Assembly (NCBI GenBank): GCA_019233695.1 | Contig: JAFAME010000179.1 | Coordinates: 1-32,033, forward strand | Direction: 5' to 3' | DNA length: 32,033 nucleotides | Source: Methylobacteriaceae bacterium | Lineage (GTDB): Bacteria > Pseudomonadota > Alphaproteobacteria > Rhizobiales > Beijerinckiaceae | Shown: piece after piece, positions 16,584 through 18,321 of the stretch | Layout: every line of letters starts with the position of its first letter | Numbering within the stretch: the stretch's first letter is position 1 | Program-made: the position numbers and the translations under genes | The notes under the pieces: generated by a model | What the model was told of the DNA's origin: nothing | What the model saw: only the letters and a program-made list of their open reading frames with translations | Database searches by the model: none

Positions 16584-16610
16584 GGTCAGGCTCCGTTAGT
16601 GTGGTCGGGT

Positions 16611-16737
16611 CCTCCCCCGCTTCTGCGGGGGAGGGGGACCATGCGAAGCATGGTGGAGGGGGCGCCGGACGGCGAGGCCGATAGGAAGCGCCCCCTCAGT
16701 CGGCTGCGCCGACAGCTCCCTCGCATTGCGGGGGAGC
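16611..16737. repeat. Multi-hairpin palindromic repeat between murD and ftsW
   Basis: Four consecutive stems are seen. CCTCCCCCGC-TTCT-GCGGGGGAGG (16611-16634) is perfect. ACCATGC-GAA-GCATGGT (16638-16654) is perfect. GTCGGC-TGC-GCCGAC (16699-16713) is perfect. GCTCCCTCGC-ATT-GCGGGGGAGC (16715-16737) has one wobble pair. In addition GAGGGGGCG near 16656-16664 pairs with CGCCCCCTC at 16690-16698. The whole block is symmetric, has no coding capacity, and resembles Rhizobiales palindromic intergenic units. It differs from the element at 12747-12900. Confidence 0.75.
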
Positions 16738-16761
16738 ATCCGACGGACTGCATCCGCGTAT

Positions 16762-18321
16762 TCATCTCGCCGCTCCCGTCGGCGTCACTCCGGGAAGACC
16801 TCGCACGAGTTCGCGAAAGCGGTCGCCGCGGACCTCGAAATTGGGGAATTGGTCGTAGGAGGCACAAGCGGGCGAGAGCAGCACGATGGGCTCCGGTGCA
16901 GTCGAACGCATTGCATCCTCCGCGGCGTGGGCGACGGCCACGTCGAGCGTGCCGCCGCGCTCGAAAGGAACGTCCGACCCGAGCGTCCCCGCAAACTCTT
17001 CGGTCGCTGCGCCGATCAGATAGGCTTTATCGATTCGGTTAAAGAGCGGCTTCAGCGGCTCGATGCCACCCTCCTTCGCCTTGCCGCCGGCGATCCAGAA
17101 GATGTTGCGGAAGGACAAGAGCGCCTTCTCGGCGGCATCGGCATTGGTCGCCTTCGAATCGTTGATGAAGAGGACCCTGCCGTTGCGGCCGACCTCCTCC
17201 ATGCGATGCGGGAGACCTGGAAAGGTAGAAAGCCCGTGCTGGATCATGTCGATGCGGACCAGCCACGCATCGGGATTATTTTTGGCGACGAGATCGCCAA
17301 AGACTTCTTCGACAATCGCCTTGTCCCGATCGAGCACTTCAGCCAGTTTCCCGCCGCCGCCCTTCCTTTCGGCCCACGACTCCAAGGCCGCGCGATAGAG
17401 CTCCCGTTTCAAGCCATGATGCAACATTCGGACAGCGGAGGTCGCCGCAATCGCGTTTTGGGCATTGTGCTGCCCCCTGAGGGAAGCAATCCCGGCAACG
17501 TCGGCAAGCCATATCGCTCCGGTTCGGGAGTTCCCTCCTTCGAGGATTCGGGTTCCGACGGTGTGGAAGCCTTCGGCAACCTCGCCGGAAAAGCGGGTGA
17601 CATGGTGGCTGCGTGACTTCAGTCGGTCGGCGATTGCCCGGCACCATGCATCGTCGACGGAGAGTGCGGCAATTGAGGCGTTCGCGACCAGTCGCTCCTT
17701 CACCGCCGCATAGTTCTCCATGGTGCCGTGGCGGTCGAGATGGTCGGGCGTGAGGTTCAAAAGCACACCGATCGTGGGCGCCAGCGACGGCGCAAGGTCG
17801 ATCTGGAACGAGGAGACCTCGATGACGTGGATGCGCTCGCTCGACGGCGGCTCGAGCGCCAGGATGGCGGTGCCGATGTTGCCGCCGAGCTGCACGTCCT
17901 TGCCTGCCGTGCGCAGGATGTGTGCCGTGAGTGCGGTCGTCGTCGACTTGCCATTCGTCCCGGTGATGGCGATGAGCGGCGCATGAGGCGCCAGCTTCGC
18001 CCGCTCGCGGCAGAAGAGCTCGATGTCGCCGATGATCTCGACGCCCGCCGCCTTTGCCTTCTCGACCGTCCAGTGCGGCCGCGGATGCGTCAGGGGAACG
18101 CCCGGCGTCAGCACGAAGCTTGCGAACCACGACCAGTTGGCCGTGCCAAGGTCCTGGACCTCGAGCCCCAGCCTGCGCGCCTTGTCGAGCGCCATGGCGC
18201 TGTCGTCCCAGCAAACGACGCGCGCTCCGCCGGCGACGAGCGCCCGCGCCGTCGCGAGCCCGGACCCGCCAAGGCCGAAGAGCGCGACCGTCTTGCCGGC
18301 GAAGCTCGTGACCGGGGTCAT
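16762..18321 (-). CDS. murD: UDP-MurNAc-L-Ala--D-glutamate ligase MurD, with internal insertion
   Basis: A 519-residue Mur ligase that adds D-Glu; MurD is usually about 440-470 residues. Landmarks are [17 protein letters not shown] (13-29), the P-loop [18 protein letters not shown] (119-136), [20 protein letters not shown] (189-208), HNAQNAIAA (285-293), [13 protein letters not shown] (367-379) and [20 protein letters not shown] near the C-terminus. Between the HNAQN helix and FPGLPHRM there is an in-frame extra segment of about 54 residues (304-357), rich in Lys/Glu/Asp, which other MurD proteins known to me lack. All catalytic motifs are kept, so the enzyme should be active. The ATG at 18321 is one base after the mraY stop. 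Confidence 0.96.

Follow-up and report, generated by a model that had tools for sequence, protein, structure and literature searches.

A net gain of 53 residues in MurD of a Methylobacteriaceae bacterium, at a turn of recurrent length change

Rickettsia palindromic elements are in-frame insertions in a housekeeping gene, and they are comparable in size to the segment described here. In E. coli MurD the hinge loop comprises Thr294-Glu304 (PMC4816537). Among the papers listed by literature searches, none, judged from its title or the opening of its abstract, deals with an insertion at the MurD position considered below. The gene in question lies on a single contig of 32,033 nucleotides (G000:C399:1-32033, referred to as the window) from a draft genome of 5.36 Mb in 514 contigs, 96.5% complete and with 3.87% contamination, and this genome is the only one by which its genus was sampled. 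The neighbours of the gene, named from sequence, resemble mraY and ftsW.

The assignment of the gene to murD is well founded, the TIGR01087 profile scoring 336.8 bits against a curated cut-off of 211.95 over residues 12-507, and Mur_ligase_M and Mur_ligase_C of Pfam both exceeding their cut-offs. Translation of the reading frame gave no internal stop over its 519 residues. The Mur-ligase motifs had been described as intact, and this is borne out by a 48-row alignment that includes the window MurD, across which the ATP-binding motif and hinge residues G369, L370, H372 and R373 are invariant. Relatives of the protein are found in Microvirga, Methylobacterium, Beijerinckia, Methylocystis and Alsobacter, among others, which points to a Beijerinckiaceae-like bacterium within the Hyphomicrobiales. 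The nearest aligned MurDs (L105 and L176; G146) are 68.3% identical to it and have the usual spacing of 24 described below.

Table 1. Features of murD in the window, with positions on the 32,033-nucleotide stretch
Feature	Position	Strand	Basis or state
murD, UDP-N-acetylmuramoyl-L-alanine--D-glutamate ligase, 519 aa	16762..18321	-	TIGR01087 and Pfam matches
ATP-binding motif GTNGKST, residues 121-127	17941..17961	-	intact; columns invariant in 48-row alignment
Hinge loop, residues 365-375	17197..17229	-	intact; counterpart of E. coli Thr294-Glu304 by alignment
Insert with a net gain of 53 residues, about 302-354 (+/- about 3 at each end)	17260..17418	-	MurD alignments

An in-frame insertion of about 54 residues was the central claim of the original prediction, and the spacing of two conserved motifs confirms it. 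From N289, which ends HNAQN, to F367 of FPGLPHRM there are 77 residues in the window MurD, and in an alignment of 110 MurDs (the window protein and 109 from the loci of relatives, some of them duplicates) this spacing is 24 in 103, 26 in one, 27 in two, 29 in two and 61 in one, with the window alone at 77. Window residues 305-355, together with 268-269 and 300-301, are occupied in fewer than 10% of the other 109 proteins. The comparison across the order proposed at the outset shows the segment to be absent from the aligned MurDs of the order. Positions 17251-17412 do correspond to residues 304-357, as first proposed, but the alignments place the net gain rather within the slightly different borders of Table 1. 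The site had also been described as the junction of the central and C-terminal domains, which does not hold. The insert begins where a central-domain helix ends and finishes about 10 residues ahead of the hinge loop; in the numbering of the E. coli gene product it maps between residues 284 and 285 (one lower in the PDB numbering of PMC4816537). Because it aligns ahead of an intact hinge loop, its site is, by alignment, a turn between two helices, the second being the last of the central domain, and not an interdomain linker.

The AlphaFold2 model of the window MurD, built with the 48-row alignment, has a mean pLDDT of 91.4 and a pTM of 0.90. MurD chains fill the top 30 rows of a structure search with this model (E. 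coli 8v8w, Z 35.4), a second comparison with VIA-align covered 1000 chains, and superposition on E. coli MurD over residues 5-513 (rmsd 3.0, 420 aligned) gives the three-domain MurD fold. The HNAQN helix is extended in the model, running from 284 to 320, and further helices occupy 326-332, 334-348 and 350-353; block means of pLDDT over residues 301-350 are 75, 75, 63, 61 and 65. With low to moderate confidence, then, the insert is modelled as a loosely held helical protrusion. The amphipathicity of its predicted helices is not significant in three stretches (permutation p 0.62, 0.27 and 0.40), and its 54 residues carry 10 positive and 10 negative charges.

The sequence of the insert appears to be an orphan, and the available searches support its being lineage-specific within the sampled genomes. 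A query of the insert with short flanks (68 residues, E up to 0.01) found its own genome and weak matches in 3 of 397 genomes of the family, its own genome only among the 397 of the order (1/397), and its own genome and weak matches in 3 of 385 genomes of the class; in the family, where loci of about 3.1 kb surrounding the four matches were read, there was no other MurD match at E up to 1e-3. Pfam gave no match, PHROGs and NCBIfam gave none below E 0.19, sequences of solved structures none better than E 0.81, and a plasmid search with a limit of E 1 gave none at all. The lineage specificity first proposed thus stands as far as family, order and class were sampled, these genomes having yielded no homologue.

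Although the insert sequence is, among the sampled genomes, confined to one lineage, lengthening at the same turn is not. A split search was made with the MurD query minus the insert, which collected the genes whose match fell into two parts, each at E 1e-25 or better, and since shorter insertions can hide within single matches the resulting counts are lower bounds. Matches were obtained in 382 of 397 genomes of the order sample, at least 19 of them split, the window's own included. The 18 others were searched again, ten by alignment (two as partial frames) and eight, all of genus g77, from match coordinates; three proved longer at the turn (G590 by 36 residues, G725 by 12 and G644 by 5), and the others split elsewhere, span the site or represent second copies. 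Of the 338 genomes in the family sample, 325 matched and at least 16 split; 14 of these were searched again, seven by alignment and seven by coordinates, the fifteenth (G022, which is L021) has no long insertion, and G169 was left out of judgement because contig ends break close to the insertion site. Genus g59, of the same family as the window, has gains of 37, 27 and 26 residues at the turn in three genomes (L039/L163, L164 and L165), the turn sequence of the first of these (L163) being identical to that of L039, and a fourth (G094; L174) has a gain of 6. A different family of the order contributes the +36 of G590 (L141), two species of genus g170 (L130 and L177) have +12, and smaller gains were seen in L098, L104 and L139 (+5 each) and in L051 (+3). 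Six genes taken separately, five chosen for length and that of G146 for closeness, comprised G094 with +6, G768, which belongs to g170, with +12, and four with the spacing of 24. The window insert is the longest among the expansions found at the turn; none of the inserts of other lineages resembles it (best E 3.9). A tree of 104 MurD rows from which the loop had been removed groups L039 with L045, apart from the window; it is a quick tree, with modest support near L039 and the window without a starred neighbour. As far as the aligned proteins go, these comparisons show a recurrent indel site at which unrelated sequences have been gained repeatedly in the order.

Within g59 the ends of the insertion are conserved in three species and the middle is variable, PWPNFGER occurring in two and with one change in the third, a hint that constraint can act on inserts of this kind. 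Other variable regions of MurD differ in length as well, the proteins of g101 (L143 and L144) having some 40 additional residues in a different variable loop, around window residues 237-261, and those of g77 (L132 is one example) missing most of that region. Two further genomes, G119 and G543, each gave two MurD-like matches on separate contigs, as a strain mixture or a second copy would.

The reading that we consider probable is that, in an otherwise normal MurD, a tolerant surface turn has grown in this lineage. The turn that joins the HNAQN helix to the final helix of the central (ATP) domain would have gained about 53 residues because it tolerates length change, and the insert would have arisen and diverged through ordinary indel and point mutation. 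The enzyme presumably still folds and works as MurD, with D-glutamate ligase activity predicted from its sequence, and the insert is expected to lengthen the HNAQN helix and to make a small, loose helical protrusion near the hinge that takes no part in catalysis. If the insert does influence the binding of partners or the closure of the domains, that influence would be secondary and specific to the lineage.

An alternative, close to the contact with MraY, FtsW or MurG first suggested, is that the protrusion is a selected docking or regulatory module that binds MraY, MurG, FtsW, MurF or MurD itself, or that adjusts how the C-terminal domain swings. The predicted helices, balanced charges and coding-like codons of the insert are consistent with such a role, as is the preservation of the insertion ends in g59. 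The corresponding model of L039, with block-mean pLDDT of 59, 42, 47 and 51 over residues 301-340 and values below 50 for 306-323 and 329-335, predicts its 37-residue insertion to be largely disordered, and since the window insert is modelled as helical (pLDDT 61-75) and that of L039 is not, a folded module fits the former somewhat better than mere filler would. Nevertheless, the insert has no homologue, its pLDDT is low to moderate and its helices are not significantly amphipathic, and the turn holds unrelated inserts in other lineages, one of them the largely disordered one just described; these unrelated inserts make growth of a tolerated loop a simpler account than contact with MraY, FtsW or MurG. 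Alignments to relatives contained no extra stretch of 8 or more residues inside MraY (105 BLAST pieces), FtsW (98) or MurF (74), so that a general lengthening of these proteins was not seen in a comparison that a long, match-splitting insertion would escape. A docking or regulatory module is on balance unlikely, and the more specific proposal that the insert is a new folded helical hairpin which docks a partner or tunes closure, the turn being a site of independent accessory modules, is improbable.

Codon use bears both on whether the segment is genuine and on where it came from. The in-frame score of the insert, 0.305 bits per codon, falls at the 16th percentile of 89 gene windows of 54 codons and exceeds all 1000 nucleotide shuffles, and since a score of 0.199 is obtained in the mirrored antisense frame too, the in-frame score is taken as support and not as proof of coding. 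An artefact of assembly or sequencing, for example a chimeric join, might be suspected in a draft of 514 contigs with 3.87% contamination and a single genome for the genus. Against this, the insert lies mid-contig, keeps the frame (a 1 in 3 event) and is free of stops (expected with a chance of about 0.12 in 54 random codons of like composition), its in-frame codon use matches that of the host, and the MurD sequence on either side is closest to the same family. An artefact is accordingly very unlikely, and the sequencing error that the original prediction named as an alternative is likewise unlikely, the stretch being in frame, stop-free and coding-like as judged from the assembled sequence. 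The excess of A/T-ending codons reported for the segment holds against the remainder of murD (GC3 of 0.70 and 0.81, respectively) but not against native residues 250-303, whose GC3 is lower still at 0.65, and compositional foreignness of the insert was rejected for this reason. With GC3 and codon use in the normal range and no element detected at the DNA level, a recent foreign origin is not supported; the recent insertion first envisaged likewise lacks support, codon use being normal and the DNA showing no repeat, duplication or mobile-element signature.

The DNA of the insert was also examined for traces of an in-frame insertion, either of a small mobile or palindromic element or of neighbouring DNA copied in inverted orientation. 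The size of about 159 nt, the frame and the lineage specificity would suit such an origin, and short imperfect inverted arms are present at the edges of the insert (17237-17248 and 17415-17426). The insert, however, is present in a single full copy in its own genome (a draft 96.5% complete) and has no DNA palindrome, its folding z is -0.59 as RNA and -0.43 as DNA, and its self-complementarity is at the level of shuffles under two scorings (0.43, 0.48 and 0.65 under one; 0.30, 0.76 and 0.18 of nucleotide shuffles under the other). The best other match in the genome (E 0.006) is an exact one of 20 nt on contig C503; it does not extend, is situated close to where an unrelated frame ends, and was set aside. 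Tandem duplication within murD was rejected, 0.18 and 0.70 of shuffles scoring at least as high as the insert against its flanks, and the best match of the insert protein to the rest of MurD had E 0.39. The sole Rfam match, a sub-threshold isrG at 17124-17200 (18.9 bits against a cut-off of 100), is outside the insert.

Adjoining the 3' end of murD, at 16605-16745, is one copy of a dispersed palindromic element, GC-rich and some 140 bp long. Counting itself, it has at least 38 matches in the genome at E 1e-5 or better (40 of 62 candidates scored), near-whole copies being 70-83% identical and partial ones matching one half. A genome search of the type used for the insert picks up this dispersed repeat, which serves as a control for the single copy of the insert.

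One result goes against the main reading and is incompletely explained. At 17203-17403 the region of the insert resembles its own antisense translation (E 0.002, and 8.1e-4 in a second comparison); 1 of 1000 codon shuffles reaches this score, which is the highest of 118 overlapping windows taken from the genes of the cluster (58, the next being 52). When 73 pieces of 67 residues were compared, the insert gave the only antisense match among those listed, the rest being in sense and several of them between Mur ligases, and the first part of the insert matched the antisense of the native hinge DNA with p 0.003 in one of three frames. A score taken across a centre, however, counts every pairing twice, and no expression of the antisense frame is known. 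Alignments of the antisense-similar arms as DNA were no better than shuffles, and as an inverted copy needs similarity at the DNA level, the resemblance is treated as chance after many looks; it slightly raised the small probability given to an inserted element and slightly lowered that given to growth of the turn. With a single copy, no palindrome and no repeat, and with a comparable search that does detect the dispersed palindromic repeat, a mobile or palindromic element was rejected at the DNA level, and an origin of this kind is most improbable.

Growth of a tolerated turn, the reading preferred here, has some practical import. MurD is a much studied drug target, and the turn just before its hinge loop takes long unrelated insertions; such a tolerant position helps in the placement of tags or sensors and in the interpretation of structures, and the window MurD is a caution against calling a long lineage-specific loop a functional module on sight. 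The Rickettsia palindromic elements differ from the window insert, which is without a second copy and without a DNA palindrome. E. coli MurD (8v8w, 1e0d, 5a5e; TIGR01087) has its fold, ATP-binding motif and hinge loop in common with the window MurD, and the E. coli gene order mraY-murD-ftsW is matched by the window as its mraY and ftsW are named from sequence, whereas the E. coli protein has the short motif spacing of 24. The MurDs of g59 are like that of the window in carrying an insertion at the turn, and differ from it in the unrelated sequence of that insertion, which in L039 has a Ser/Thr/Pro/Gly fraction of 0.36 against 0.13 in the window. The MurD of G590 is likewise extended at the turn by unrelated sequence and has extra residues in other loops too. 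Set beside these proteins, the window insert does not suggest a new system but the ordinary growth of a loop where length change is tolerated. Most likely the order holds several such cases that arose separately, this being one of them, and a docking role is not called for.
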